From Chaetoderma sp. LZ-2023a (taxonomy: Eukaryota; Mollusca; Caudofoveata; Chaetodermatida; Chaetodermatidae), in contig CM067373.1 of assembly GCA_034401795.1 (NCBI GenBank), positions 44,256,914-44,320,913 on the forward strand: a stretch of DNA of 64,000 nucleotides, written 5' to 3'. The notes under the pieces are model-generated. The model did not search any database. It was not told the DNA's origin and saw nothing but the letters and a program-made list of their open reading frames with translations. Of this stretch, positions 1 to 35,500 are shown piece by piece; position 1 is the first letter of the stretch; every line of letters starts with the position of its first letter. Position numbers and translations under genes: made by a program.

Positions 1-3000
1 ATAGTATTAGCTGCCGTTGCTGAGATTCATTCACTGTCGTGATTATGGTGAGATATATAGAGAAATACGCTAAATCATGAGCATTATATGGCATAGTATC
101 AGCTGCCGTTGCTGAGATTCATTCACTGTCGTGATTATGGTGAGATATATAGAGAAATACGCTAAATCATGAGTATTATATGGCATAGTATCAGCTGCCG
201 TTGCCGAGATTCATTCACTGTCGTGATTATGGTGAGATATATAGAGAAATACGCTAAATCATGAGCATTATATGGCATAGTATCAGCTGCCGTTGCTGAG
301 ATTCATTCACTGTCGTGATTATGGTGAGATATATAGAGAAATACGCTAAATCATGAGTATTATATGGCATAGTATCAGCTGCCGTTGCCGAGATTCATTC
401 ACTGTCGTGATTATGGTGAGATATATAGAGAAATACGCTAAATCATGAGCATTATATGGCATAGTATCAGCTGCCGTTGCTGAGATTCATTCACTGTCGT
501 GATTATGGTGAGATATATAGAGAAATACGCTAAATCATGAGTATTATATGGCATAGTATCAGCTGCCGTTGCCGAGATTCATTCACTGTCGTGATTATGG
601 TGAGATATATAGAGAAATACGCTAAATCATGAGCATTATATGGCATAGTATCAGCTGCCATTGCCGAGATTCATTCACTGTCGTGATTATGGTGAGATAT
701 ATAGAGAAATACGCTAAATCATGAGTATTATATGGCATAGTATTAGTTGCCATTGCCGAGATTCATTCACTGTCGTGATTATGGTGAGATATATAGAGAA
801 ATACGCTAAATCATGAGTATTATATGGCATAGTATCAGCTGCCGTTGCCGAGATTCATTCACTGTCGTGATTATGGTGAGATATATAGAGAAATACGCTA
901 AATCATGAGTATTATATGGCATAGTATCAGCTGCCGTTGCCGAGATTCATTCACTGTCGTGATTATGGTGAGATATACAGAGAAATACGCTAAATCATGA
1001 GTATTATATGGCATAGTATCAGCTGCCGTTGCCGAGATTCGTTCACTGTCGTGATTATGGTGAGATATATAGAGAAATACGCTAAATCATGAGTATTATA
1101 TGGCATAGTATCAGCTGCCGTTGCTGAGATTCATTCACTGTCGTGATTATGCTGAGATATATAGAGAAATACGCTAAATCATGAGTATTATATGGCATAG
1201 TATCAGTTGCCATTGCCGAGATTCATTCACTGTCGTGATTATGGTGAGATATATATAGAAATACGCTAAATCATGAGTATTATATGGCATAGTATCTGCT
1301 GCCGTTGCCGCGATTCATTCACTGTCGTGATTATGGTGAGATATATAGAGAAATACGCTAAATCATGAGTATTATATGGCATAGTATCAGCTGCCGTTGC
1401 CGAGATTCATTCACTGTCGTGATTATGGTGAGATATATAGAGAAATACGCTAAATCATGAGTATTATATGGCATAGTATCAGCTGCCGTTGCTGAGATTC
1501 ATTCACTGTCGTGATTATGGTGAGATATATAGAGAAATACGCTAAATCATGAGTATTATATGGCATAGTATCAGCTGCCGTTGCCGAGATTCATTCACTG
1601 TCGTGATTATGGTGAGATATATAGAGAATTACGCTAAATCATGAGTATTATATGGCATAGTATCAGCTGCCGTTGCCGAGATTCATTCACTGTCGTGATT
1701 ATGGTGAGATATATAGAGAAATACGCCAAATCATGAGCATTATATGGCATAGTATCAGCTGCCATTGCCGAGATTCATTCACTGTCGTGATTATGGTGAG
1801 ATATATAGAGAAATACGCTAAATCATGAGTATTATATGGCATAGTATTAGCTGCCGTTGCTGAGATTCATTCACTGTCGTGATTATGGTGAGATATATAG
1901 AGAAATACGCTAAATCATGAGTATTATATGGCATAGTATCAGCTGCCGTTGCTGAGATTCATTCACTGTCGTGATTATGGTGAGATATATAGAGAAATAC
2001 GCTAAATCATGAGTATTATATGGCATAGTATCAGCTGCCGTTGCCGAGATTCATTCACTGTCGTGATTATGGTGAGATATATAGAGAAATACGCTAAATC
2101 ATGAGTATTATATGGCATAGTATCAGCTGCCGTTGCCGACATTTATTCACTGTCGTGATTATGATGAGATATATAGAGAAATACGCTAAATCATGAGCAT
2201 TATATGGCATAGTATCAGCTGCCGTTGCCGAGATTCATTCACTGTCGTGATTATGGTGAGATATATAGAGAATTACGCTAAATCATGAGTATTATATGGC
2301 ATAGTATCAGCTGCCGTTGCCGAGATTCATTCACTGTCGTGATTATGGTGAGATATACAGAGAAATACGCTAAATCATGAGCATTATATGGCATAGTATT
2401 AGCTGCCGTTGCCGAGATTCATTCACTGTCGTGATCATGGTGAGATATATAGAGAAATACGCTAAATCATGAGTATTATATGGCATAGTATCAGCTGCCG
2501 TTGCCGAGATTCATTCACTGTCGTGATTATGGTGAGATATATAGAGAAATACGCTAAATCATGAGTATTATATGGCATAGTATCAGCTGCCGTTGCCGAG
2601 ATTCATTCACTGTCGTGATTATGGTGAGATATATAGAGAAATACGCTAAATCATGAGTATTATATGGCATAGTATCAGCTGCCGTTGCCGAGATTCATTC
2701 ACTGTCGTGATTATGGTGAGATATATAGAGAAATACGCTAAATCATGAGTATTATATGGCATAGTATCAGCTGCCGTTGCTGAGATTCATTCACTGTCGT
2801 GATTATGGTGAGATATATAGAGAAATACGCTAAATCATGAGTATTATATGGCATAGTATCAGCTGCCGTTGCCGAGATTCATTCACTGTCGTGATTATGG
2901 TGAGATATATAGAGAAATACGCTAAATCATGAGTATTATATGGCATAGTATCAGCTGCCGTTGCCGAGATTCATTCACTGTCGTGATCATGGTGAGATAT

Positions 3001-6000
3001 ATAGAGAATTACGCTAAATCATGAGTATTATATGGCATAGTATCAGCTGCCGTTGCTGAGATTCATTCACTGTCGTGATTATGGTGAGATATATAGAGAA
3101 TTACGCTAAATCATGAGTATTATATGGCATAGTATCAGCTGCCGTTGCCGATATTCATTCACTGTCATGATTATGGTGAGATATATAGAGAAATACGCCA
3201 AATCATGAGCATTATATGGCATAGTATCAGCTGCCGTTGCTGAGATTCATTCACTGTCATGATTATGGTGAGATATACACAGAAATACGCTAAATCATGA
3301 GCATTATATGGCATAGTATTAGCTGCCGTTGCCGAGATTCATTCACTGTCGTGATTATGGTGAGATATATAGAGAAATACGCTAAATCATGAGTATTATA
3401 TGGCATAGTATCAGCTGCCGTTGCCGAGATTCATTCACTGTCGTGATTATGGTGAGATATACAGAGAAATACGCTAAATCATGAGCATTATATGGCATAG
3501 TATTAGCTGCCGTTGCCGAGATTCATTCACTGTCGTGATTATGGTGAGATATATAGAGAAATACGCTAAATCATGAGTATTATATGGCATAGTATCAGCT
3601 GCCGTTGCTGAGATTCATTCACTGTCGTGATTATGATGAGATATATAGAGAAATACGCTAAATCATGAGTATTATATGGCATAGTATCAGCTGCCGTTGC
3701 CGAGATTCATTCACTGTCGTGATTATGGTGAGATATATAGAGAAATACGCTAAATCATGAGTATTATATGGCATAGTATCAGCTGCCGTTGCCGAGATTC
3801 ATTCACTGTCGTGATTATGGTGAGATATATAGAGAAATACGCTAAATCATGAGTATTATATGGCATAGTATCAGCTGCCGTTGCCGAGATTCATTCACTG
3901 TCGTGATTATGGTGAGATATATAGAGAAATACGCTAAATCATGAGTATTATATGGCATAGTATCAGCTGCCGTTGCCGAGATTCATTCACTGTCGTGATC
4001 ATGGTGAGATATATAGAGAATTACGCTAAATCATGAGTATTATATGGCATAGTATCAGCTGCCGTTGCTGAGATTCATTCACTGTCGTGATTATGGTGAG
4101 ATATATAGAGAATTACGCTAAATCATGAGTATTATATGGCATAGTATCAGCTGCCGTTGCCGATATTCATTCACTGTCATGATTATGGTGAGATATATAG
4201 AGAAATACGCCAAATCATGAGCATTATATGGCATAGTATCAGCTGCCGTTGCTGAGATTCATTCACTGTCATGATTATGGTGAGATATACACAGAAATAC
4301 GCTAAATCATGAGCATTATATGGCATAGTATTAGCTGCCGTTGCCGAGATTCATTCACTGTCGTGATTATGGTGAGATATATAGAGAAATACGCTAAATC
4401 ATGAGTATTATATGGCATAGTATCAGCTGCCGTTGCCGAGATTCATTCACTGTCGTGATTATGGTGAGATATATAGAGAAATACGCTAAATCATGAGCAT
4501 TATATGGCATAGTATTAGCTGCCGTTGCCGAGATTCATTCACTGTCGTGATTATGGTGAGATATATAGAGAAATACGCTAAATCATGAGTATTATATGGC
4601 ATAGTATCAGCTGCCGTTGCCGAGATTCATTCACTGTCGTGATTATGGTGAGATATATAGAGAAATACGCTAAATCATGAGCATTATATGGCATAGTATT
4701 AGCTGCCGTTGCCGAGATTCATTCACTGTCGTGATTATGGTGAGATATATAGAGAAATACGCTAAATCATGAGTATTATATGGCATAGTATCAGCTGCCG
4801 TTGCTGAGATTCATTCACTGTCGTGATTATGATGAGATATATAGAGAAATACGCTAAATCATGAGTATTATATGGCATAGTATCAGCTGCCGTTGCCGAG
4901 ATTCATTCACTGTCGTGATTATGGTGAGATATATAGAGAAATACGCTAAATCATGAGTATTATATGGCATAGTATCAGCTGCCGTTGCCGAGATTCATTC
5001 ACTGTCGTGATTATGGTGAGATATATAGAGAAATACGCTAAATCATGAGTATTATATGGCATAGTATCAGCTGCCGTTGCTGAGATTCATTCACTGTCGT
5101 GATTATGGTGAGATATATAGAGAAATACGCTAAATCATGAGTATTATATGGCATAGTATCAGCTGCCGTTGCAGAGATTCATTCACTGTCGTGATTATGG
5201 TGAGATATATAGAGAAATACGCCAAATCATGAGCATTATATGGCATAGTATCAGCTGCCGTTGCTGAGATTCATTCACTGTCGTGATTATGGTGAGATAT
5301 ATAGAGAAATACGCTAAATCATGAGTATTATATGGCATAGTATCAGCTGCCGTTGCTGAGATTCATTCACTGTCGTGATTATGGTGAGATATATAGAGAA
5401 ATACGCTAAATCATGAGTATTATATGGCATAGTATCAGTTGCCATTGCCGAGATTCATTCACTGTCGTGATTATGGTGAGATATATAGAGAAATACGCTA
5501 AATCATGAGTATTATATGGCATAGTATCAGTTGCCATTGCCGAGATTCATTCACTGTCGTGATTATGGTGAGATATATAGAGAAATACGCTAAATCATGA
5601 GTATTATATGGCATAGTATCAGCTGCCATTGCCGAGATTCATTCGCTGTCGTGATTATGGTGAGATATATAGAGAAATACGCCAAATCATGAGCATTATA
5701 TGGCATAGTATCAGCTGCCGTTGCTGAGATTCATTCACTGTCGTGATTATGGTGAGATATATAGAGAAATACGCTAAATCATGAGTATTATATGGCATAG
5801 TATCAGCTGCCGTTGCCGAGATTCATTCACTGTCGTGATTATGGTGAGATATATAGAGAAATACGCTAAATCATGAGTATTATATGGCATAGTATCAGCT
5901 GCCGTTGCCGAGATTCATTCACTGTCGTGATTATGGTGAGATATATAGAGAATTACGCTAAATCATGAGTATTATATGGCATAGTATCAGCTGCCGTTGC

Positions 6001-9000
6001 TGAGATTCATTCACTGTCGTGATTATGGTGAGATATATAGAGAAATACGCTAAATCATGAGTATTATATGGCATAGTATCAGCTGCCGTTGCTGAGATTC
6101 ATTCACTGTCGTGATTATGGTGAGATATATAGAGAAATACACTAAATCATGAGTATTATATGGCATAGTATCAGCTGCCGTTGCTGAGATTCATTCACTG
6201 TCGTGATTATGGTGAGATATATAGAGAAATACGCTAAATCATGAGTATTATATGGCATAGTATCAGCTGCCGTTGCTGAGATTCATTCACTGTCGTGATT
6301 ATGGTGAGATATATAGAGAAATACGCTAAATCATGAGTATTATATGGCATAGTATCAGCTGCCGTTGCCGAGATTCATTCACTGTCGTGATTATGATGAG
6401 ATATATAGAGAAATACGCTAAATCATGAGTATTATATGGCATAGTATCAGTTGCCATTGCCGAGATTCATTCACTGTCGTGATTATGGTGAGATATATAG
6501 AGAAATACACTAAATCATGAGTATTATATGGCATAGTATCAGCTGCCGTTGCTGAGATTCATTCACTGTCGTGATTATGGTGAGATATATAGAGAAATAC
6601 GCTAAATCATGAGCATTATATGGCATAGTATCAGCTGCCGTTGCCGAGATTCATTCACTGTCGTGATTATGATGAGATATATAGAGAAATACGCTAAATC
6701 ATGAGTATTATATGGCATAGTATCAGCTGCCGTTGCTGAGATTCATTCACTGTCGTGATTATGGTGAGATATATAGAGAAATACGCTAAATCATGAGTAT
6801 TATATGGCATAGTATCAGCTGCCGTTGCCGAGATTCATTCACTGTCGTGATTATGGTGAGATATATAGAGAAATACACTAAATCATGAGTATTATATGGC
6901 ATAGTATCAGCTGCCGTTGCTGAGATTCGTTCACTGTCGTGATTATGGTGAGATATACACAGAAATATGCTAAATCATGAGCATTATATGGCATAGTATT
7001 AGCTGCCGTTGCTGAGATTCATTCACTGTCGTGATTATGGTGAGATATATAGAGAAATACGCTAAATCATGAGTATTATATGGCATAGTATCAGCTGCCG
7101 TTGCCGAGATTCATTCACTGTCGTGATTATGGTGAGATATATAGAGAAATACGCTAAATCATGAGTATTATATGGCATAGTATCAGCTGCCGTTGCCGAG
7201 ATTCATTCACTGTCGTGATTATGGTGAGATATATAGAGAAATACGCTAAATCATGAGTATTATATGGCATAGTATCAGCTGCCGTTGCCGAGATTCATTC
7301 ACTGTCGTGATTATGGTGAGATATATAGAGATATACGCTAAATCATGAGCATTATATGGCATAGTATTAGCTGCCGTTGCTGAGATTCATTCACTGTCGT
7401 GATTATGGTGAGATATATAGAGAAATACGCTAAATCATGAGTATTATATGGCATAGTATCAGCTGCCGTTGCCGAGATTCATTCACTGTCGTGATTATGG
7501 TGAGATATATAGAGAAATACGCTAAATCATGAGTATTATATGGCATAGTATCAGCTGCCGTTGCCGAGATTCATTCACTGTCGTGATTATGGTGAGATAT
7601 ATAGAGAAATACGCTAAATCATGAGTATTATATGGCATAGTATCAGCTGCCGTTGCCGAGATTCATTCACTGTCGTGATTATGGTGAGATATATAGAGAA
7701 ATACGCTAAATCATGAGTATTATATGGCATAGTATCAGCTGCCGTTGCCGAGATTCATTCACTGTCGTGATTATGGTGAGATATATAGAGAAATACGCTA
7801 AATCATGAGTATTATATGGCATAGTATCAGCTGCCGTTGCCGAGATTCATTCACTGTCGTGATTATGGTGAGATATATAGAGAAATACGCTAAATCATGA
7901 GCATTATATGGCATAGTATCAGCTGCCGTTGCCGAGATTCATTCACTGTCGTGATTATGGTGAGATATATAGAGAAATACGCTAAATCATGAGCATTATA
8001 TGGCATAGTATCAGCTGCCGTTGCCGAGATTCATTCACTGTCGTGATTATGGTGAGATATATAGAGAAATACGCCAAATCATGAGCATTATATGGCATAG
8101 TATCAGCTGCCGTTGCTGAGATTCATTCACTGTCGTGATTATGGTGAGATATATAAAGAAATACGCTAAATCATGAGCATTATATGGCATAGTATCAGCT
8201 GCCGTTGCTGAGATTCATTCACTGTCGTGATTATGATGAGATATATAGAGAAATACGCTAAATCATGAGTATTATATGGCATAGTATCAGCTGCCGTTGC
8301 CGAGATTCATTCACTGTCGTGATTATGGTGAGATATATAGAGAAATACGCTAAATCATGAGCATTATATGGCATAGTATCAGCTGCCGTTGCTGAGATTC
8401 ATTCACTGTCGTGATTATGGTGAGATATATAGAGAAATACGCCAAATCATGAGCATTATATGGCATAGTATCAGCTGCCGTTGCTGAGATTCATTCACTG
8501 TCGTGATTATGGTGAGATATATAGAGAAATACGCCAAATCATGAGCATTATATGGCATAGTATCAGCTGCCGTTGCTGAGATTCATTCACTGTCGTGATT
8601 GTGGCGAGATATATAGAGAAATACGCTAAATCATGAGTATTATATGGCATAGTATCAGCTGCCGTTGCTGAGATTCATTCACTGTCGTGATTATGGTGAG
8701 ATATATAGAGAAATACGCTAAATCATGAGTATTATATGGCATAGTATCAGCTGCCGTTGCCGAGATTCATTCACTGTCGTGATTATGGTGAGATATATAG
8801 AGAAATACGCTAAATCATGAGCATTATATGGCATAGTATCAGCTGCCGTTGCTGAGATTCATTCACTGTCGTGATTATGGTGAGATATATAGAGAAATAC
8901 GCTAAATCATGAGCATTATATGGCATAGTATCAGCTGCCGTTGCCGAGATTCATTCACTGTCGTGATTATGGTGAGATATATAGAGAAATACGCTAAATC

Positions 9001-9202
9001 ATGAGTATTATATGGCATAGTATTAGCTGCCGTTGCCGAGATTCATTCACTGTCGTGATTATGGTGAGATATATAGAGAAATACGCTAAATCATGAGTAT
9101 TATATGGCATAGTATCAGCTGCCGTTGCCGAGATTCATTCGCTGTCGTGATTATGGTGAGATATATATATATAGAGAGCAATACACGCTAAATCCTGATC
9201 AT
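1..9202. repeat. 92-bp satellite array, about 100 copies
   Basis: Head-to-tail copies of a 92-bp unit beginning ATAGTATCAGCTGCCGTTGC. It runs in from the left edge, so the true array is longer. Copies differ by a few recurring variants (for example GAGCATT/GAGTATT and TGCCGAG/TGCTGAG). Variant order repeats with an offset of 1012 bp (11 units) around 2985-4292. All reading frames contain stops. The array lies inside the RyR intron after E17. The last copy decays from about 9150, next to a MITE. Confidence 0.98.
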
Positions 9203-9650: not shown

Positions 9651-9794
9651 CTCTCCAAATGTCATCCGTCGTCATAACAGAGAACGAGTCCATATTGGCT
9701 AAAAATCACAGATCTACGCATTAAATGACCCACTCTAGTAATTTGCTATGCTCACTGCGTCTAAAAAGCACACATCTATATGTATTTAATGACT

Positions 9795-10220
9795 GATGAC
9801 TGTGTAATTAAGAATTACATATCTATATGTACTGAATGACTCACTGATGACTCCGTGTAATTAAGAATTACATATCTATATGTACTGAATGACTCACTGA
9901 TGACTCCGTGTAATTAAGAATTACATATCTATATGTACTGAATGACTCACTGATGACTCCGTGTAATTAAGAATTACATATCTATATGTACTGAATGACT
10001 CACTGATGACTCCGTGTAATTAAGAATTACATATCTATATGTACTGAATGACTCACTGATGACTCCGTGTAATTAAGAATTACATATCTATATGTACTGA
10101 ATGACTCACTGATGACTGTGTAATTAAGAATCACATAGCTACATGTATTGAATGACTCACTGATGACTCCGTGTAATTAAGAATTACATATCTATATGTA
10201 CTGAATGACTCACGCTAGTA
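9795..10220. repeat. 53-bp tandem array, about 8 copies
   Basis: Near-identical 53-bp units containing AATTAAGAATTACATATC and GAATGACTCACTGATGACT. The units are almost uniform, suggesting recent expansion. Intronic. Confidence 0.93.
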
Positions 10221-10740
10221 AGTGACTATACTCGATGAGCTCTAAGATGTCCAGACTGCGATTCTCCTCAGGTATATGGAGAGCCAGCATAGATACTGAA
10301 AGTATGAACAGGCAGGCATAATCTATGACACAACTCACTATCTATGAAGCATAAAGAAAATATGAAGACACAAATAATGTATATGATATGGTTCAGGTAA
10401 ATGCATGGTCTATCAAGCAGCAAGAAAGCATGAACAGTCACGCATAGCGTAAGATACAGTTCATATTGATATGCTTCAATCAGAGAGCCTCAATATTCTC
10501 TCCATAAAGCTATGATAACCAGCAGACAGCCAGCCAGCTCTACAATCTTCGTGACGAGTTAATACAAACAAATGCCTGATACAACCCATTGAATGATGGC
10601 GAGACAATCAGTTCAATGCTAACTGCCATCAATGGGATGTGTAATTGATAACATGCAATTTTCAACTAAACATGGACTTCTCAGTACTAAGTAAGTGGGT
10701 GGGTAGTTGGGTGAGTGAGCGGGTGGCCGGGTGGGTGGGT
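10221..10740. other. Intron sequence without recognised features
   Basis: AT-rich, apparently single-copy intron between two tandem arrays. A short GGGTGGGTGAG-type run lies near 10695-10750. No coding exon or RNA gene is seen. Confidence 0.6.
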
Positions 10741-10804: not shown

Positions 10805-11350
10805 GGGTGCATATTCACTACCTAGGAGCAAGTTCACTACTTGGGCACCTGTTCAATATGTGGGTGCCGTGTTTATTACATGGGTGCATGTTCATTACAT
10901 GGGTGCAGGTTCATTACATGGGTGCATGTTTATTAATGTGTACATGTTCATTACATGGGTGCATGTTCATTATGTGGGTGCATGTTCATTACATGGGTGC
11001 ATGTTCATTATGTGTGTGCATGTTCATTACATGGGTGCATGTTTATTAATGTGTGTACATGTTCATTACATGGGTGCATATTCATTATGTGTGTGCATGT
11101 TCTTCACATGTGTGCATGTTCATTGTGTGTGCATGTTCATTACATGGGTGCATGTTCATTACATGGGTGAATGGTCATTAAATGGATGCATGTTCATTAC
11201 ATGGGTGAATAGTCATTAAATGGGTACATGTTCATTACATGGGTGATTATGTGTGTGTATGTTCATTGCATGGGTGCATGCTCATTACATGGGTGCATGT
11301 TCATTATATGGGTTCATGTTCATTATGTGGGTGCATGTTCATTATGTGTG
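10805..11350. repeat. 19-bp minisatellite beside the E17 donor
   Basis: About 28 imperfect copies of a 19-bp unit, GTTCATTACATGGGTGCAT. The array ends within about 20 bp of the E17 splice donor. Open frames across it simply reflect the repeat. Confidence 0.93.
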
Positions 11351-11366: not shown

Positions 11367-11553
11367 CTGGCTCTTCACACAGCATGCTCCAGCCTCTCAC
11401 ATCAGACATCTTAATGATATGTACTTTCAAACAGGCTTCAGGTACACGTGACCAGGTAGCTGGTTTAAGCACCTGGACATCGAGACGAGTAGGACAACCA
11501 GGTGTAACTTGTTTAGGGCCACGGAAGACTGCCGCTGATAATGGTAACGTGTT
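11367..11553 (-). CDS. RyR: RyR exon E17 (after SPRY3)
   Basis: A 187-bp exon after TTCTGTTACAG, with donor GTAAGCC. Encodes [30 protein letters not shown] and GWSMLCEEP, matching MPLSAAMFQ, CPPRL, WSRMPNHFLQV and GWAVQCQEP of vertebrate RyR. Phase 0 in, phase 1 out. The next exon lies beyond the left edge; I saw no candidate for it in 1-11366. Confidence 0.95.
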
Positions 11554-14500
11554 CTGTAACATACAGAATGAAGCCGGTATGATGAGAGCAAGATCAAGAT
11601 GTATAACAAATATACATTTTATTGAATCACTAAACACATTGAAATAATGTAAGTAATGCAAGTAAATTCATCAATGTCTGTGGGTATACATTATATAGCC
11701 AATGTAACCATTCTTAATCAAGCGCCACCGGTTAGCTGCTTGTACAGTACATATCGGAAACAAGAGGCCAAAGGAGCCTGTATCGCTCACCTGGACCATA
11801 GGCATTTCAACTAGAATGGTCATTTTCAATAAGTAGAACTCTAATGAGTTGAGCAGACTTGTAACCAGAAAACAGAGGCCCTGTTTCTTTATGTATCAAC
11901 TTCTCTTGAACAAACTTTAATGGCCCTTAGTCGTCAATATCATATCTCTCAAATTTCAGCCAAATCCGTTCAGTGGCTCTGGAGACGAAGTTGCTTTCAT
12001 GAAAACCAGGCCATCCAAGATGGTCACCCAACCATTTGGCAAATCAAGTTTCCTTGAACAAACTTGTTTCAGCTTGTGCCCTAAATGATATTTTATGAGT
12101 CTTGTATCAATCGCTCAAACAGTTTCGAATTAAGATTTTTAAAGACATTTCTAAAAATCGACCAAAAGCCATAATGACAACCGGCCAAATTGGCCGATCG
12201 TCTTCATTTGAACAAACTTAAATCTCCATGCCCTAAGGATATTTCCTACCATATATAATTGAAATTGGCCCAGTAGTTCTCGAGAAGACAAGACATTTTA
12301 AATTTCCCATTGCTTTAGTATGGGAGCTTTTTGCGGGAAAATTATCCAAGATGGACGGCAACCCGTTTATCCAACAGTTTCGAAAATTGCAAACTTGAGA
12401 TCAGAATACCCAAAAATATATAAAACCAATTTCGGCCTCAAAATCCATCAAACAAAAAATCCAATATGGCTGCCAAACACGCTACATTTTGATTGGCCCA
12501 TGGCCGCCATGTTTTTTTTACAGATCAACTTCCCTTGAGCAAACTTTATTGGCCCTTAGGCCCTAATCATATCTTCCAAATTTCGGCCTGATCACGTCAG
12601 CGGTTCTGGAGAAGTAGTTTTCAGGAAAACTAGGTCATCCAAGACGGCCGCTGAACAATTTGGTCAATCAAGTCCTCTTGAACAAACTTGGCTTACATCT
12701 TTCCCTAGATTAGGTTTCATGAGTTTTGAATCGATTCCCCAAGCGGTTTCGGAGAAGATTTTTAAAGATGTTTCCTAAAATCGGCCGAAATGCAAGATGG
12801 GTAACGGCCAAATTGGCCGATCGGCTTCATTTGAACAAACTTGGATCCCTATGCCCTAAGGATGCTTCCAGCCAAATATAAGTGAAATCGGCCTAGCAGT
12901 TCTCGAGAAGACATTTTAACTTTCCCATTGCTCTAGAAGGGGTTCTGGAGTTTTCTGAAAAAAATTGGTCATTCAAGATGGCCGCCGAACTGTTTGGTCA
13001 ATCAAGTTCTCTTGAACAAATTTGGTTCAGCTCTTGCCCTAATTGATTTCATGAGTTATGAATCGATCCCTCAAACGGTTTCAGAGATTTTTAAAGACGT
13101 TTCCTAAAATCGGCAGAAATCCAAGATATCAAATTGGCCGATCGGCTTCATTTGACTAAACTTGAATCCCCTATGCCCTATGGCATAAGCTCACACTTGG
13201 CCTTTCAGGCCAGGTGAGCTAATAAAATGTACTGTTGAATATTTTGAGCATAATTGTACTGGAAGACCTTCCAATCCAATTGTGTTCAAAATATTCAAAA
13301 GAACATTTCTAACATTGTGTTCAAAACTGTATTAACTAATATGTTTCTGGCTTGATTTTGGAAACATGTTAACTTATTTATGAGCTGTATTATAAGAGAA
13401 TTTCATCATTCTGGCTGCATAGATTAGATCTTCAGATGTGAGGACGTGGCTACATGTTAACATGACCATTAGGTACTTACCTTCGTCCTGGACAGCTCAA
13501 ACTTCAGGTGTGAAGATGTGGCTACATTATAACATGACCATTAGGCACTTACCCTCGTCCTGGACAGCTCAAACTTCAGGTGTGAAGATGTGGCTACATT
13601 ATAACATGACCATTAGGCACTTACCCTCGTCCTGGACAGCTCAAACTTCAGGTGTGAAGATGTGGCTACATTATAACATGACCATTAGGTACTTACCCTC
13701 GTCCTGGACAGCTCAAACTTCAGGTGTGAAGATGTGGCTACATTATAACATGACCATTAGGCACTTACCCTCGTCCTGGACAGCTCAAACTTCAGGTGTG
13801 AAGATGTGGCTACATTATAACATGACCATTAGGCACTTACCCTCGTCCTGGACAGCTCAAACTTCAGGTGTGAAGATGTGGCTACATTATAACATGACCA
13901 TTAGGCACTTACCCTCGTCCTGGACAGCTCAAACTGGAACATCTCTTTGATAGTCGGCTCACAAATGACTGCTGGAAACAGCAATGTCCCTGGCTCCACC
14001 TGAGAAATGGCGGGGAAGAATGCCGTTAAAAAATTAAGCTCAATATAATATACTCTTACATTAAAACCCCTTAATGGATACGCCGGTCAAAACTGGCCTC
14101 TGCATAGACTTGAGAAATGTCCATTTATAGATCAATTGAAGCCTATTTTTAGTTGGGACTTGCAGTAAGGTCACTTAATATAACACACAAGCTATGGTAG
14201 CTAAATGATGGCAGTCCATTAATTCCCTTGCCTTAAAAGAACCACCATCTTGTAGCGCCAGAAGAGGTGTCCATTATAGACATGTTTAAATGCACTTAGA
14301 TAAGTTATCGATGGATTGGTGCACTGTTTCATCACTAGATAAAGCTTTCTCTGACTATAACTAACTGCTAGGCCTGAGGTTTGTGAGGATTTTCATGAAC
14401 CGAACAGGTTCACGATACCGATGTCCAAACTACGAACTGGTTCACGAGCCTTTTTAATACGCTATTATATGCGAGAAATTACTCCTAACAGAAAATAACA

Positions 14501-17500
14501 TTTAAAGGCAGGTGGCTTTACTGGCTAAATGGTAGAAAAACACAAATGACCAGTTCTGACAACCAATGTTAGAAAATAATATAAGATTCATAGCCAGCTA
14601 TGTTCCATTCATGGTCATATTCAATAATAACACTTAGAGGACATTCAGAGATTGCTTGTCTATTAGCCCTTTCACCGATAAATCCCTGAAAAAGTCAATT
14701 CTTTATGATATAAAACTTACTCTATTGAATATTTTGAAATTAATTTGACTGGAAGCTGTTGCTGCTAAAGGCAGCAACAGCCTCTAGTCAAATAAATTCC
14801 AAAATATTCAACAGTTTTCCTGTATGGTTTTGCTAAAATTAGATATGGGAATTCATTGGTGAAAGGGTTAGTTTATGTATGGGTAATGAATCTCATGAAC
14901 CACATGAATCCAGTGCAAGCGAACCAAACCATGGTTCGTCTTCGCTTGGTTTGTGATTTTCCGAACCAACGAATGTTCGCTACAGCCTTACTAACTGCTA
15001 ACCTTTTCACTGCCATAAACCTTATACAACTCCTCCTTTATGCCATATGAAATACTCTGTTGAATATTATGAAGCTTATTTGTCATAAAAGCATCGAAGC
15101 TTCCAGTAAAATTATTTACAAAATATTAAACAGCTTTGTGTTGGATCCCTGTATTGTGAATGCTGACAATAGTATGAGACCGATTTGTGAAAATTATCTG
15201 GTTCTAGCTAATCATCAAGGCATTCTCACCTGTCAGAAAAGCATCGAAGCTTCCAGTAAAATTATTTACAAAATATTAACCCTGTGGCAGCGACGGGACG
15301 TATTATCGGCTTGAAATAATTATGTTCCTAGTCCGACGGGACGTATTATCTACAAGAGACAATTAGACGCCGGAGTGACGGGACGTATTATCAGCTCAAG
15401 CTACCACCAGTTTTCGATCGCTAAATACGCAAGCATTACTGGCGTTTTATCCAATCAAACTTAGCGCTACATTACGTCAGAAGGCTGAATTTTCTAAATC
15501 CACTGTCAATTGGTCATTTCAGTTTGTTTACAAATTTATGCGGGAAAATATAAATAGATCTTTGCGAATGAAATAGTTTGCGTAAACATGTCGAAGATGA
15601 CGAAGCAATTCCTTTATTTAAGCGAGTACCCGATTATCCGGATAGATGGAATCGGGTATTATTATTATTATTATTATTATCATTATTATTATAGAGCTGC
15701 TCAAAGATTGGGCAAGCTGGAAAATCTTTCTAAACGGCATCCTATACTAGCAGTGTCATATATAATCCGGAAATGCAAACGCAACCCGCTCTCAGTAGTT
15801 AAGATCACGAATTTCGTTTGTTATCTTTGTCATGTGATATGATGCTACAGCTTATGACAGTTAGTTTAATTTTAATGAAACTTTAGTTTCCACGCTTTTA
15901 AATTATTTTATAATGACAATTTGCCATTACTGAATGACTGAAAGCCTCTCACAATTATTGAACATCCATCATGGTGAAATTAATTTAAATAAATGGTCGA
16001 GTGGGGTTTGGTATTGAGAGACACTTGCCAATAATTTGAAAAAACATCACATATCCCCATACTATAATATATATATATATATTATAGTAGGGCGACATGT
16101 GGTAGTGGTATGCATGGACGAAAATTCAAAGGCCTGTGGTCTGGAACCTTGAAGGACATATTAGCATAGACAATACAATTGTTTTAAAGATATTGACCAC
16201 TGTGGAGATATGGTTCACATGGGGACAGAACAAGGGGGGGGGGGGAATTGGGAGATGCCCCTGCCCCCTTTTTTCCTCTCCCACAGTTTAGACCCCCACC
16301 CCACCCTGGTCAAAACACATTCCGACACCTCAGTTATTGCGCTTAATTGCCTTGTCCATTTTTGTCAATCTTACTGGGGTTTGCTGCTGTTCATGTTGCA
16401 ATGTTATTAATGTATCTATCCTTTTATTTTTCAGCTTGAAACACCATTTGAGAGAAAAATGAAAGCAAATTTAAACTTGATGATTTTTATAAACCCTGTA
16501 ACACTTAAATTTGCTTTAAAAACTTACATCTCATAGTAAATATCCATTTCCAGACAAAGAGAATCTGTTTGAAAGTTTACCACTCGGTTATTGCGCCAGA
16601 CATTCCAGTCATACTTTTTCAAAAATTTCCTCATGATCTGCAAATGGCCATTTTGCAAGGTCACTGCTGTAGCCGTTTTTGGCTGGCTTGCGTGTTATAG
16701 GGTTAATAATATTTAAATACTGTATTGCGTAAACTACTACCTATTGTATATGGTGCCTCCGAGTCCATAATCATATCAGTAATTTACATTAATAATTCTA
16801 TCAAAAGCTTTTGGAGATGGATGGATAGACAGATGAATGGAGGCAATTGCAATATCCCAGCAGTCTTATTCTACACAGATCAACAAATTTTTCTCTTTAT
16901 AAAATCCATGTCAGTAAACCCATCAGCCTACTTAGCAGGATAAAGTGCCTGATTTTCTTAAGCCATTGTCCGCACACCTGAAAAAATAGGAACAATAAGT
17001 TAGAAATAGGCAAATTCTAAGAGTTATATTAAGACTTTAACAATCAATTTTTTTCATGAATTTCTCAAAGACAGTGCCCATATGCAGACCAAGAGCCAGT
17101 CATTCCAGTGATACATTTTCAAAAATTTACATTTTCTTAGACAACTGCAGCAGTTCTGTCTCAAATGTTAGATGGTTAACAATATACATGTACGGCGCAG
17201 GGTCATAAGGATATACTGGTAAGCACTATGACCCGACAACAGCTGTTATGGTCATACACCGGCTTCAGATTTTAGCCAGAAATTAAATGAATAATATAAA
17301 AAATGGTGGGCATATATAGTCCAACAAGGGAGTATGACTACTAATTACTGGATTAACCTTTTCAATTGACATGAGCGAATAATAAATTTGTTACGAATGT
17401 TTCAAAATTCTGTTGAATATTTTGAAACTAATTTGACTGGAAGCTGGCTATGGCAGCAACAGCTTCACTTTGGATTCAAAATATTCTACATCTTACCGGT

Positions 17501-20500
17501 ATGACTGTAAACGTGAAATTTTGGAATTTCAGGTTCAAATGTGATAATTGTTTTTGCTTTTGGGCACACTTCCATGATAGTGCAAGTTTGTTCCATGGCC
17601 CCAGTTCTTTATATCTTTGATCAGAGGATACTGGCCACACAGTAAATGGTGATAGAATGTTTGTAACCAGGGCAACAGTGAAATATTTGTTTTCTAAGGA
17701 ATAATTAATAAGTTCCAATCATCAATTATTAGTAAATGTGCTGTTACTTCCAAGTTTTCAGTTACTCAATGACTAATTTAACCAAGAAAGTTATAGATTG
17801 TGGTAAGAGAGCAGCAGAACCAATAATATATAAATCCATTTCGTTTACCTCTGGTCGCGAAATAACAATAATAGATAAATAATCCGATAATCTCAATCAT
17901 CGATGCGTGTCTTTGTTTACAATTTCTGAGAAAACCCCCTCTTCAAATTACCGGCAGTAATACGGCCGAGTTGACATGCGAAAGCTGTCAAATATATCGG
18001 CATCACTTCCCGGTTGGCAATATCGTTAATCTAGTCATCTGTCTACTTTTTAGTTTGTGGTGTACAAGAAATATGCATAGATTGACATATTTGAACACGC
18101 AAATGTTACTATTTTACAAAACATCTGATCGTGTCGTCATCTTTCCTGAAAAATTAATATTCATGAATTCCCGGCCAATCAGACGCGTTAATATTCTAGC
18201 ACGTGATACAGTGTTGAAATTAATATTCATGAATTCCCGGCCAATCAGACGCGTTAATCTTCTAGCACATGATACGGTGTTGCCCAATAACGAACGGGTA
18301 ATGAGCTTGGTACTCATATATTAGATACGGGTACAATTCTACAAATTCCTCTCGTTCTCTGACGATCTTTTACGATAAACGATTCTTATTGGAGACGCCG
18401 CTACAAAAAAATGTCTGATGCTATAGAATCATAGTGTAAAACATTTGCGTTCGCTTTTTAAATGGCTGATTGCAACCAGCAATGCCACATAGCATAAAAT
18501 TTGCCATTTATTCGCTGTCAACGCTGAGAAACCCTGGTATGTGTTCGGTTATGTGTAAAGGAATTATTCAATATTGAATAAGGCCTTCCCCCAAAATCTG
18601 AAACAGAATTTCGAGAATTGTTATGGTAACATGGCATAATATAAATGTAATTTTCACATCTTATCGGATGAAAATCTGGACGAAACGCTGGTATCTGTTA
18701 GTTTTAATACCATTTTTCTTAAATTTATCAATGGCATTCGTGAAATATAAAAAAAAATCCGATAAATTTTGCAAAAAGAGACCAATGTATTTATTCTACA
18801 AGGGGTGTCCATTCTTGGAAGCACGTTGGCCAACTAAAATATATTTTATTCATACAAATTTTATATGTACTAAAAGGAATTTTTTTGCCCTTTCTCATGA
18901 TATATAGTTTTATATGTAGTGGTCTGTTACTTTGCCAAAGATAATTAGTATAGTCGGCATGGTAGCACTACGCCGCTATCACGCCGCTACAGCTTATAGG
19001 CTAGGGTTCTAAGCAAGTTTCTAGCTTTTGGCTGTAGGCTTTGCAGCACTTTTTTGTAAATTCTTGGTAGGGCCCAGAGGGTTAAACAGCTTTGTGTTGG
19101 ATCCCTGTATTGGGAATGCTGACAATAGTATAATGAGCATGATTTGTGAAGATTATTTGGTTCTAGCTAATAATCAAGGCATTCTCACCTGGAATTTATT
19201 TGCAACCTCCTTGCCATTGACAGAGAAGCTGAGAGTTCCACTAGCGGTATCAATGGTACAGCCGATCTGAAGACCAATTGATGCTCGTTTATTGGACATA
19301 TCTGAGGAGCCACCATATCTCTGCAGCAGGTCACCAGCTGACACCATATAACAGTCCTTACGGCAGACACTGACAACAACAAAGAAAGGCGAATTTGTGC
19401 AATGTAAGTGACAACAATAAGCATACGCCATAACAAATATTACTTAGAAATATTAATTAAAGAAGAATACTGGTTATATGCATGCTGGCCAAATAATTAA
19501 CCCTTTAATAGTCAAGCTGGGCAAAACTGGCCTCTGTAGTGGTCTTAAGGAATGCCCGTTTGCAGCCCACGAGAAGACGATTTTTGAAAATTTACCACTG
19601 GAATGCCTGGCTCTATAACCGAGCCAGTCATTGGTAAATTTTCTAAAATAACCCTCTCTTGGCCTGCAAATGGACATTCAATATGCTAATATAATGATCT
19701 CCTTGATCAAACTTGACCATTATAGGGTTAAATGAATTTTACCATACATGTAACACTGAAGACCATGGTCAGATATTATTGTAGTGCAATCCCAAGTCAG
19801 GATCTGGGATGAGGTAATGACACAAGTCATTCAAAAGTTGGCAGGGGGAGGCAGAACCCTCGGCGAATAAAGTGATTTTTCCTTAAGACAATGCCACCAG
19901 CTCACTCAGTTATAGAACCATAATTATTGACATTAAGTAGATGCTCTATGGAAATGAATATGTAGTGTCCCGGGGACAGAATATTTCATATTCCCCTCTC
20001 CACACATGCCTGCCCGCCCGCACACACGCATACCCCACCCTGTCTAATATCAGGACAATGAGTGAATGATATGTTGAAAGATAACATTGCTCAGATAGGG
20101 ATATGTAAAAAAATGGAGGGGTCCAATCTGTCACTTGCTATCTGACGTCACAATCAAAATATGTCACTTGCTATCTGACATCACAATCAAAATATGTCAC
20201 TTGCTATCTGACATCACAATCAAAATATGCCACTGGTTAGCTGATGTCACAATCAAAACATGTCACTTGTAAGCTGATGTCACAATCAGAATGTGTTACT
20301 TGTTAGCTGACGTCACAATCAAAATATGTCACTTGTTAGCCGATGTTACAATCAAAACATGTCACTTGTAAGCTGACTTGACAATCAAAATATGTCACTT
20401 GCTAGCCGACGTTACAATCAAAATATGTTACTTGCTAGCTGACATCACAATCAAAATATGTCACTTGTTAGCCGATGTCACAATGAAAACATGTCACTTG

Positions 20501-23500
20501 TAAGCTGACATCACAATCAAAATATGTCACTTGCTAGCTGATGTCACAATCAAAATATGTCACTTTCTAGCTGATGTCACAATCAAAATATGTCACTTGC
20601 TAGCTGATGTCACAATCAAAATATGTCACTTGCTATCTGATGTCACAATCAAAACATGTCACTTCTTAGCTGGTGTCACAATCAAAACATGTCACTTGTT
20701 AGCTGATGTCACAATCAAATCATGTCACTTGTAAGCTGACATCACAATCAAAACATGCCACTTGTTAGCTGACATCACAATCAAATCATGTCACTTGTTA
20801 GCTGATGTCACAATCAAAACATGTCACTTGTTAGCCGACGTCACAATCAAAATATGTCACTTGTTAGCTGACATCACAATCAAAATATCTCACTTGCTAT
20901 GGGTCCGGAAAATATTCGAAAAGTCCAAGTGGGGCGCCAAAAAATTTGCTTTGGTTGACTTCAGTCTAGTTTCTGAATTATTCTGACTTCTGAGTATCTC
21001 TAGAATCTAGTCTATAATTTACAGTGTACATATTGACTCTTTCAACAACAAGTCTCTGAAAGAGTAAACTCTGCAATGACTCATCTATCAAATATTTTGC
21101 AAGTAATATGACTGGAAAGCATTGCTGCCTTCGCCAGATATGACATCCAGTCAGATTAACTTCAAAATATTCAATAGAAATAGCATATGCTATAGTACTA
21201 TACAATGGAAAGAATCTCTTCAGTGATTTGTCGTTAGGAGCATTAAAAAATACTAATTCTCCAAAGTTAATGCAGCATTGCTGTTTCTGAGTAATCATGA
21301 TGTAGTTTCTTGACACATTACCGTTAACATGTTAAAAAATAATACTCAAGACATTTTCTTTGTCATTTTTATTAGCATATTATTTAAGGGCAACCTTGAT
21401 CTGTGGCGACCAACCTCAAAATGGGTGAAATGGCGTCACAGGTTGCCCTGGGGGGAACCTGATTTTTTTTTTTTTCTACCTCTTGTCTAATTGATTTCAA
21501 AATTCCCAACAGCTTACCCTCTAGTTACCTTGCCCGTAGTGTCCTTCCGCCAAATTAGGTTGAAATCCACGAAGCAGGTTACTGAGTAGTGTTTTGACAA
21601 TTTCTGGTAAATTTTTCACAAAATCTCAGATTTTCACCTAAAGAATTGATCAATCACAATATTGAATAGAAGTTCTAGAGCTTACCACCATAGAAACTGT
21701 CTAACCAAGTTTGGTTGAATTATGTCAAGCAACTAAGGATGAGTCGCAGCATTTTCACAATTTCCGATAAATTTTTCATAAAATCTAAGATTTTCACCCA
21801 AACAAGAATTCTGTGGAAATAATCTCGCCTGTCTCCTGTTTATCACAGTGACCTTGACCATTGACCTTGTGACCTCAATGTTAGCATGCTGCTTCCTAAC
21901 ATTATAGGTAACCATGTATTGGAAGTGTAGTTCCAATAGTATTAACCAATCCTGAAATGTAAATGATTTGCTAAACGGAAAAACTTAAAATTCAGAAAGT
22001 AGAGGTAAATAGCAAGATCGGACTGACCTTGACCTTTGACCTAGTGACCTCATCATGATGTCTCCTTGTGTACATGCAACCATGTGTCCCGGTTACGTTC
22101 TAATAGGATTAAACAATCATAAAACATAGGCAAATATGCTAAACTTAATGTTGGAAATAGACATGACAGAGGTCAAATACCAAGGCTACAATGACCTATA
22201 GCTTTGACCTAGTGATGTCACCATCAGCACACATCTTCCTTATGGCATAGGGAACCATGTGTCTAGGATTGGTTCCAGTAGAATTAAGCAATCCTAAAAT
22301 ATAGGCAAAGATGATCCGCTAAACGCAAAAACTTAACATTGACGCTTTTGCTTAGCAGACGAGACAAAAACTAACCAACCAAAATTCTGAATAGAACTTC
22401 TGGAGGGTACCAGGATAGGATCCTTCCAGCCAAATTTGGTTGAAATCTGTCAACTCGTTAAGGAGAAAAAACAATTTGATGGTCGGATGATGGATGGGCG
22501 GATGACAGCTGGATGGATGATGACGGCCAGCCACCATGGCATAGGCTCATTAGCCCCACTGAGCTAATTATAAATGTACACCTAAATATTTTGAAATTAA
22601 TTTGACTTGGATCTCCATAAGCAGCAGCAGCAGCTTGCAGTTTAATTAATTTAAAAAAAAGCCAACAGCTGTAGTTACCTTGAAATTGGAATTCTGGGAA
22701 TTCACGGTTCAAAGTGTTAAAATTGATTCAAATGTGTGTTCAAAGTGGGCAGAGCTAAGCCAACAGGCAGGGCATGGCTAGAAATGTGTCCTTCTATTGA
22801 CAGCCAGATCCACATTATGCTAAAGTGTAAGCAAACTCTCTCATACAATGCCTAGGTCTAAAAGCAGCTTCACTGTAATAGTAACATGTCCAGGTAAAGA
22901 ACAGATATGACAAATACACTATAATATATAAAAAATTCTGCTTCAACATTTTGAAATTAATTTGACTGGACACTATTGCTGGCGAAAGCACCAACATCTT
23001 TCAGTCAAGTTAGTTACAAAATATTAAACAGATTAACAGTATGGTTGGTTTCAAATTGTGATAATGTGATTTCAAATATGAAATGCTTCAACAGGTGTCC
23101 AAGTCTGATCAGAAAATACACGGATAACACAACAGGACTCACCTTTGCTTAATCGTGTAATCCATATCCAAACTCGACACTATCACATGTCGAACTTTGC
23201 GAAGATCAAATGTCTGAGTGAGCATATGAAAGCTCGGTGTAACCCAACCGACAAACACCTGATTAGGATCTTGTCCAGGAAATACCCTCACAGAATAATA
23301 ATATTCATGGATTTCCTGAACCTGTAAATTCAATGCATGAATCTCTTCGTCTGTCTGGATTAAGTCATCCAATGAACTCATTTCTCGCTTTTTATTCGCA
23401 AAGTTTTTACGTCCAACGGCATCTTGGAATTCAAATGGAACAAAGCTTTGTGCTACATGAATGTCATCGTCACCAGCCACTGTATCGCTAGCTTCCGACT

Positions 23501-32500: not shown

Positions 32501-35500
32501 ATTAATTTTATCCCATATCATTCACCAGGTAAAGTTATCCTCTAAGATATGCTCTAACCATTCGGTTAAAGAATAATTATTTCACATAATAGGGAGAGCG
32601 CCCCATCTATGATTCAAATCTAATCACTGCTAGTTTTCTGTTATCTCAGATATGATCAGGAGAAACTGATGCAGAATATAAATTACAAATCCTTTTTAAA
32701 TATCATGCAAATGTACATGAGTGCTTATAATAGTGGAGTTAGTTCCCTTATCCACCAGGCGGATACAGAATTTGCAGAAGTGAGGGTGAAATGGGTGTGC
32801 ATTAGGCAGGATATCCCACGTAGATCCGTTCCTGTTATGTAAAGACCCTTACCTGCTTTGGTACTGTCATCAAATGATCCACCCTCGCTGTAGTTAGCGT
32901 CATTGTAGCCGTCATCGCGCTCGTCGTCGTCATCATCATGGCGTATGTTCTCTCTGTTCATGTGGTGCTCTAAAGCTGATAGCTGTACTCGTCTTTCTCT
33001 GTGCAAACACATGATCAGTTAGTGAACAACAGTGAATCACATGACCATTCTGTTCACGCAGTCAATCACATGATCACTCAGTTCACATAAGGAACCACAC
33101 ACAGTCAAGTTATCTTGAATGAATACTACTCACAAGTCAGCGGTCTAGCCAATTGTCTTTTCAGTGAAGATTATCTAATATTAGGCGCAAACGAATTTAG
33201 GTAGAGTTACACAGATAAGTTAATATTGTAGCATTTGGCTAACAAATTTGAAAATGATGCCGATGATTGGGTGTGTGTCATAAACTATTGGAAGTAAGTA
33301 TACTTCAAACACACTATTTGAAATTTCTGGTTAATAGCTCAGAAATAACTTAAATTGTTTCGCAAACAAAATAAAATGTACTGTTGAATAATTGATTGGA
33401 TTGGAAGACATTGCTGAGTAATTATGTTTCCAATAATCACAAGAACATTTGTTATATCCCATTCCAAATTGTATTAACTAGTTACGGTTTTCTTATTTAT
33501 GAGCTGTACTGTAACTTACTGACAAATTAACCCTCTAAGTTTAATCATTGAAAGTCCAGGGTCTCGATTTCAAGACAAGTATACAGGACCACTGTTGAAT
33601 ATTTTAATAACTAATTTGAATGGAACCTGTTGCTGTAATAGGCAGCAAACAGCTTTCGGTCAACCTATTTAAAAAATATTCACTAGAATATTCTTTACAT
33701 GATAAAAGAATTTGTGGCTTCTGGTCTATACGGGTTGATGAGTTAGGGAAAGAGGGCAGTAGGGAGTGAGGGAGGGGAGGGGAGGTAGGAGAGGGATGGG
33801 TGGCGAGGTGAGGGAGGAGAGGGATGGGTGGCGAGGTGAGGGCGGGAGGGAGGAATGGTGGGGAGGGGAAAGAGATGGGTGGGGACGGGGAGGGAGGGAG
33901 GTGAGGGAGGGGCAGGGAGAGGGAGAGAGGGGGCAAGGGATGGGAGGAAGCAAGGGAGGGAGAGGGAAGGAGGAAGGGAGCAAGGGAGAGGGAGGCAGCA
34001 AGGGAGGGAGGGCGGGAGGGAGCATGCCAGAGAATAAATAAGTGATGACAGTAAAGAATTGCTGTGATGCTGTGACCTGTAGAGATTTGAGAATGAAGTA
34101 TTTTCCTTGTTTTACCTTTGGAAGAATCTATCGTGACACTTGACGGGCAGAGAGAGGCGCATATACTCAAGCCGCACCTTCTCCAGTGTGCCGAAAGCTT
34201 TTGACATCACCTTCAAACACGGCGTCACATTGGCTCTAAACAAAAAGTCTTATAGTTATTAAAATCAGATTAAAAACATATCAGAAATTATAACTTTGCA
34301 AAAATCACAACACGTATAAATGAATAGGTAATTAAGGTAACATGTCTTAAGTGACCCACTTATGGAGCCATAGTCTGTCTAAAGCGACCACTTTATAGAG
34401 CCACAGTTAAACTTTTCTTACATGACCACCTTAGTCACAGTTAATGACTCCTGGTTTCTTAACCCTTTAATGGTCAAGCCAGCCAAAACTGGCCTTGCAG
34501 TGGTCTCAAAGAATTTCCATTTGTAGGCCAAGAGAGGACTATTTTAGAAAATATACCGCTAGTATGCCTGGCTCGTCAATCCAGAGGTAAATTTTCAAAA
34601 ATAGTCCTCTCTCGGCCTACAAATGGACATTCTATAAGCAAATATTTTGATTTTTGATAGTGGCTCTTTATAAGAGGGTCTTTCAACCACAGTCTTAAAG
34701 AACCACAATCATTTGTAAGTGAAACTAGGCTCTCTCTCTCTCCCTCCCTCCCTCCATCCATCCATCCATCCCCTTATGAAATAAACAATCTTTTTAAAGG
34801 ATATGTAATATTTAGCCAGTCACATCTAATATCACTTCCATGATGAGGTTTTTGAGGTATACATTAAACATAGTCATAAGGCAGCGAAAATTTGTATCGT
34901 AAAATTGTGTTGAATTCTTATGGTATTGTCTCAGTTTTAGAGAATGAATTTCGACTTTTTCTTGAAATATACCTAACATAACTCCACACCCGTTCTCAGA
35001 GATGCTGGTTTGGAATTTGTTATCATCCTAATAGAAGCCTAGGCTACTACAAGGAGAAATATGGCAGTCTTCTCTTGCCCAGCAAATGGACATTGCTCAA
35101 GCCCACTGCAGAGGATGTTTTTTGCTGCCTTGACCATTAAAGACAACTTTGACTGAATTGGACAGGTAAATGAGTAAAGCAATTAGACTTACCCGCCAGG
35201 TATTCTTGACACTTGTAGTCTTGGATGGTTGTTATTATCAAGTGGCTCAAATATTGGCAGTTCTTTACCATACCACAGGCTCATATTTCTTGTCATATTT
35301 CTGAAATAAACCAAGAATCATTTTTTCAACAAGGTATATATTTGCAGTCAATATATAGTATATAAGAACTATGGATTTATAAATCTACTAAGTCAGAACA
35401 TATATCAGAGAGCATTTTACCCACCACCCACTCCAGCCCAGCCCTCTATGATCTGACACTGTCCACAACAACGGAATCTTGATCTGATCTATTGATCCAT

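Follow-up and report, generated by a model that had tools for sequence, protein, structure and literature searches.

Background

How one splice site is chosen among identical copies is a classical question, studied largely with built constructs that carry two sites. In one study, minigenes that had two identical CAG/guaagu donors and 365-nt introns were spliced from the upstream donor only, and human transcripts with large introns (> ~250 nt) preferred the sites closest to each other across the exon; at 3' splice sites, exon definition merely weakened the upstream preference (PMC9225289). Duplications that carry a donor have been described in natural genes. An 8-bp duplication at a human ATP11A donor reportedly extended the exon, with the distal copy used (PMC9035003), and a tandem duplication across an exon-intron boundary multiplied the splice signals of a potato RdRp gene (PMC4974935). 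Within the open-licence literature, represented mostly by abstracts, we found no description of splice-site arrays.

Here we describe tandem arrays in the genome of the mollusc Chaetoderma sp. LZ-2023a whose units contain a splice signal of the adjoining exon. Like intronic minisatellites (VNTRs), they consist of head-to-tail units specific to each locus (29-72 bp in the donor arrays), with near-identical inner copies and a diverged outer copy. Unlike VNTRs, the unit holds a live splice signal, in most cases together with coding bases, and the arrangement recurs at several exon ends. The potato case resembles these arrays in that a tandem duplication across an exon-intron boundary multiplies splice signals, but it involves two copies rather than many, and on our reading the existing intron here just lengthens. 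The present sequences give no sign of a new intron spliced between copies, unlike intron gain by duplication. The cross-exon minigenes share with our arrays identical tandem donors behind one acceptor and long introns; that account concerns two-site minigenes and human transcripts, whereas the arrays described here are natural and comprise ~3 to 22 or more units, as counted by TRF. The ATP11A duplication likewise spans an exon end and its donor; it is a single event of 8 bp that includes only the GT of the intron.

An array of donors at a ryanodine receptor exon

The window, a 64,000-nt stretch of contig C15, contains exons of a ryanodine receptor (RyR) gene on the minus strand. One of these, at 13913..13999 (minus strand), is 87 nt long and in phase 0 on both sides; searched against PDB as part of an exon pair, it matches vertebrate RyR1, RyR2 and RyR3 (best E 2.6e-23), in agreement with the gene identity proposed in the first-pass annotation. 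A 72-bp unit composed of the last 21 coding bases of this exon and the first 51 bases of the intron, and thus spanning the exon-intron boundary, occurs seven times at 13430-13933 (minus strand). TRF reports 7.0 copies of 72 bp at 13430-13935 with a 97% match. Unit alignment and TRF thus confirm the seven tandem copies of exon end and 5' splice site that the first-pass annotation had described. The head-to-tail order of the copies and a unit length within 10-100 bp make the array a minisatellite, and searching the 2.44-Gb genome, with very common words skipped, gave a single match for the 505-bp array.

Unit 1 (13862..13933, minus strand) comprises the 21-nt live exon end and the live donor GTAAGTG at 13912. 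Units 2-7 (13430..13861, minus strand) lie in the intron, and their donors are at 13840, 13768, 13696, 13624, 13552 and 13480. Units 1, 2, 3, 5 and 6 are identical, the exon-borne copy included, and unit 4 differs by a single change (G to A at intron position +7). Unit 7 (13430..13501, minus strand), the outermost, is the most diverged with 7 changes in 72 positions, and its last codon is AAG (Lys), the residue found in the aligned vertebrate RyR1, RyR2 and RyR3; the exon and the five units in between carry AGG (Arg) instead. Each of the seven donors is preserved as GTAAGTG or GTAAGTA, as stated in the first-pass annotation. In a scoring that covered 44 donors of the gene, the live donor and five distal donors reach 10.0 each and the donor of unit 7 reaches 12.2. 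The acceptor of the next RyR exon (11367..11553, minus strand; own donor CAG/GTAAGC) is the expected partner of the donor at 13912. Unless an exon was overlooked, the introns flanking exon 13913-13999 are ~5.2 and 2.4 kb long. The early stop, the AG directly before each 21-nt piece and the in-frame exon end with phase 0 on both sides were also borne out: read-through past the first donor yields V-S-A-stop.

The same window contains a second donor array. A RyR exon at 10214..10295 (minus strand), ending in ..LALHIPEENRSLDILELIEYSHLLA, has the donor AGC/GTGAGT, the lowest-scoring of the 44, and an array of 53 bp x 8.0 at 9792..10213 (minus strand) begins with the first base of this donor. The array is devoid of any exon piece. 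The motif GTGAGTCATT is kept in all 8 units, including the live one, and the decoy donors score 2.6 compared with 1.6 for the live donor. Two further arrays lie close to splice sites: 28.8 copies of 19 bp at 10805..11344 (minus strand), starting 22 nt past the donor of exon 11367-11553 and with no GTRAG in the consensus unit, and 2.7 copies of 29 bp at 33004..33086 (minus strand), ending 6 nt before the acceptor of exon 32853-32998.

The gene is rich in other repeats. A 92-bp satellite of ~227 copies (20.8 kb, 97% match), located inside one RyR intron, occupies window positions 1-9167 and runs past the left end of the window. Other RyR introns contain large minisatellites of 33-39 bp in 23-55 copies, at 36427-38047, 26013-28029, 51271-52872 and 20125-20896. 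A retroelement lies within an intron at 41021-45833 (minus strand), with RVT_1 detected in 1 of 4 frames searched (Pfam E 7e-12); frames resembling it by eye recur in further introns and genes. One RyR exon, at 23143-23932 (minus strand), is 790 nt long, far longer than the other assigned exons.

Further arrays in the same gene and in other genes

The survey was extended to a 264-kb region consisting of the window and 100 kb on each side, in which region positions equal window positions plus 100000 (the 92-bp satellite thus spans region 88305-109167). We assigned 44 RyR donors and 45 acceptors, mostly by eye, on the basis of open frames flanked by good splice signals and of their resemblance to RyR; homology searches extend to only a few of the 44 donors. 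Pfam returned no family for a 92-residue query and none for 5 of 9 exon pieces in another search. The uncertain exon at region 83163-83320 was left out of the donor and acceptor counts, and the exon at region 217712 has no assigned donor. Across the 264 kb, 5 of the 44 RyR donors (two of them in the window) carry a donor array and 1 of the 45 acceptors carries an acceptor array. The array first seen at one exon is therefore not a curiosity of that exon, as it had appeared in the first-pass annotation, but a member of a class that recurs in this gene and in others.

The three donor arrays outside the window measure 43 bp x 2.9 (region 703-822), 48 bp x 5.3 (region 16322-16570) and 65 bp x 2.7 (region 220261-220435). 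The exon of the first falls below the Pfam cut-off for the RyR domain (E 6.1e-5, 23.6 bits compared with a cut-off of 27.4); those of the other two were assigned by eye, with no family returned by Pfam. The donor is intact in 3 of 3 units of the array at region 805, the live one counted. Decay is evident elsewhere: in the array at region 16549, 2 of 5 units have lost the two bases just before the GT, and at region 220397 AT replaces GT in the middle one of three units.

The acceptor array is a mirror image of the donor arrays. It consists of ~16 copies of 44 bp at region 80280-80979, to the left of the window, each with a pyrimidine tract, ACAG and ~31 exon bases, and the last copy is the live exon start. 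The exon behind it matches the RyR junctional-solenoid domain (Pfam E 5e-11). Its 17 acceptors, including the live one, score from 8.4 to 12.3, the live one 11.6. Each unit seems to have its own branch-like TTAAC or ATAAC, identified by eye, along with a pyrimidine tract and AG. The signal part shows 15 changes in 15 columns compared with 25 in 31 for the exon-derived part, so that the signal is not less variable, and none of the unit alignments revealed signal-specific conservation of decoys.

Arrays in other genes were sought genome-wide with a pattern in which three AGGTAAGT words follow one another at intervals of 42-72 bases; it gave 1149 overlapping matches. Among the matches listed, 11 distinct arrays were read at their starts, ten on contig C1 and one on C2. 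In 4 of the 11, all in other genes, the array starts at an exon end; in the remaining 7 no recognizable exon was found at the edge. At one of these seven (C1:151380900-151381600) the array may begin at a candidate 42-nt exon (LPNLLHIELVIFFE). The array-bearing exons belong to a DnaJ-domain gene (Pfam E 3.8e-10), a TPGS1-like gene (E 3.7e-8) and a CHD4-like helicase (E 1.1e-9), in each of which the domain match reaches within one residue of the exon end, and to a CLC-type channel, for which the match is weak (E 0.013, residues 1-28 only) and further CLC-like exons were recognized by eye. The unit takes in between ~6 and 52 exon bases in these four arrays. In 40 kb around the CHD4-like gene, a second exon has an older array, diverged in its copies of the exon end and of the donor. 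The recurrence of exon-end donor arrays in several genes is firmly established by these observations.

Comparison with chance expectation

Tandem arrays with periods of at least 10 account for 26% of the 264 kb, in 92 clusters. We compared the counts with 20,000 circular shifts of the TRF arrays; at donors, an array was counted when its edge fell within the last 60 exon bases. Five donor arrays were observed against 0.78 expected for the 44 donors (P = 0.0003). For the 45 acceptors the shifts gave no excess, with 1 array observed against 0.80 expected (P = 0.55). Counted within 60 nt either side of the site, array starts around donors numbered 10 (1.87 expected) and array ends around acceptors 3 (1.87 expected). 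When the donors that had revealed their loci are set aside, arrays are present at 5 of the 61 remaining donors, which belong to three genes, compared with 1.12 expected (P ~0.006 by a Poisson approximation); the CHD4-like gene alone contributes 1 of 14 unselected donors (P = 0.25), and none of the 4 unselected donors of the CLC gene has an array.

Several controls point the opposite way. On both sides of exons, array edges reach about twice the density at distances of 241-1000 nt, with no consistent trend closer in, and part of the donor excess may therefore be regional. By coverage, donors lie in arrays less often than intron sequence does (3 of 45 donors compared with ~30% of intron 30-mers, at 22/30 identity); this comparison weights long arrays by their length, which is why the tests of array edges were added. 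Genome-wide, the donor word has no advantage in triple arrays: 1149 overlapping matches compare with 5748 for the backwards pattern. In view of these controls we propose a preference of arrays for donors only tentatively.

Proposed mechanism and alternative explanations

We infer the donor used, the fate of mis-spliced RNA and the founding mechanism as follows. It is likely, in our judgement, that the 72-bp array is a young minisatellite born of a duplication across the exon end, that it is tolerated because the donor nearest its own exon wins, and that the distal donors are near-silent decoys undergoing decay. In a genome dense with tandem arrays, a tandem duplication across the exon-intron boundary would found the array; the copy joined to the exon would stay coding and its donor live. 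With long flanking introns the splice sites would be paired across the exon, so that the donor nearest to the acceptor of the same exon would win and the distal donors would be bound transiently at most. Rare use of a distal donor would extend the exon into the stop, and the message would be degraded. Decoys would not be maintained and would mutate in older arrays, while the exon and intron copies would be kept identical by recent expansion or by exchange.

Two considerations point to the copy adjoining the exon as probably the one used. The exon-borne copy keeps the protein intact and must serve most transcripts if the gene works, and as the decoys are not weaker than the live donor, position must decide. 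Applied by inference to the present arrays, the cross-exon rule from human cells would predict silent donor arrays and costlier acceptor arrays, which is in line with the 5 donor arrays and 1 acceptor array of this small sample. The ATP11A case counts against a preference for the upstream donor, although only the GT of the intron was duplicated there.

The distribution of differences among units bears on the age of the array. Identity of the exon and inner copies together with divergence of the outermost fits a young array that may be growing or homogenizing from the exon side. The split between Lys in unit 7 and Arg in the exon could mean either that the exon changed and then spread the change through the array, or that the outer copy changed by chance. 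A bolder reading, in which donors are preferred birthplaces of arrays in this genome and intronic copies exchange with the exon end, so that an intronic repeat could alter the final codons of a conserved protein, seems to us unlikely.

Membership in two known classes was considered and rejected. A recursive (ratchet) splice site is an acceptor with a pyrimidine tract immediately joined to a donor (AG/GTRAGT). The 72-bp unit has no AG/GT joint; its AG is 21 nt upstream of the donor and scores poorly as an acceptor. Introners are many similar copies inserted in many genes (PMC9860276); as an introner or other dispersed element the array was rejected on its one genomic match (very common words skipped) and on the unrelated units of the other arrays.

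Among the alternatives to the proposed mechanism, it is possible, though less than likely, that tandem duplication is especially frequent at donors or in the DNA immediately behind them, for instance through transcription-linked structures, and that arrays are seeded there and then drift. The excess of donor arrays over the shifts and of array edges within 60 nt of donors, compared with the slight one at acceptors, speaks for such hot spots, but most of the sample comes from one gene, array edges are also denser 241-1000 nt from exons, the backwards-pattern control is unfavourable, and selection against acceptor arrays could yield the same asymmetry. That the arrays are kept for a function, with extra donors serving as U1 docking sites that shield long introns from early cleavage or buffer donor loss, appears very unlikely: the donors of young arrays are all intact (7 of 7 in the 72-bp array, 8 of 8 in the 53-bp array, 3 of 3 at region 805), but the young arrays are near-identical throughout and intact donors therefore say little, older arrays have lost donors, and the signal part of the acceptor array is no less variable than the part derived from the exon. 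Regular use of distal donors, with stop-bearing messages going to decay and receptor output lowered as in control by unproductive splicing, would be helped by the strength of these donors and the immediacy of the stop; we regard it as improbable in view of the minigenes, which under exon definition were spliced only from the upstream donor (PMC9225289).

The first-pass annotation had offered decoy donors and protein variants as alternatives, the latter arising if each unit were spliced as an in-frame 21-nt microexon that adds FELSRTR. As anatomy the decoy array stands, with distal scores equal to or above that of the live donor and an immediate stop; the repeat-number variants fare badly. An AG does precede each piece, in frame and with phases 0, but as a microexon acceptor the AG in CACACCTGAAG scores -8.7, whereas the 44 live acceptors from which the matrix was built range from -0.2 to 15.3, and the spacer between 21-nt pieces is only 51 nt. 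In a leave-one-out comparison of 14 exons the AG scores -8.05 and 1 of the 14 live acceptors falls below it (-16.4), which suggests a poor rather than an impossible acceptor. With the 53-bp window array lacking an exon piece altogether, we find microexon splicing extremely doubtful. Hardly any weight falls on an assembly artefact, whether a wrong copy number or a repeat made in assembly: tandem arrays can be hard to assemble, but 2 of the 7 units have differences of their own, the whole array spans just 504 bp, and like arrays with different units stand at other exons.

Conclusions

This genome holds natural arrays of 3 to 20 or more copies at the exon ends of conserved genes, with donors and, in one case, acceptors as the repeated signal, and the arrays differ in age. 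Annotation of repeat-rich genomes should expect false extra exons at such arrays; the exon scan used here called some decoy units as exons. The arrays would permit a direct test of cross-exon pairing in vivo, and of the extent to which evolution puts up with duplicated splice signals at each end of an exon.
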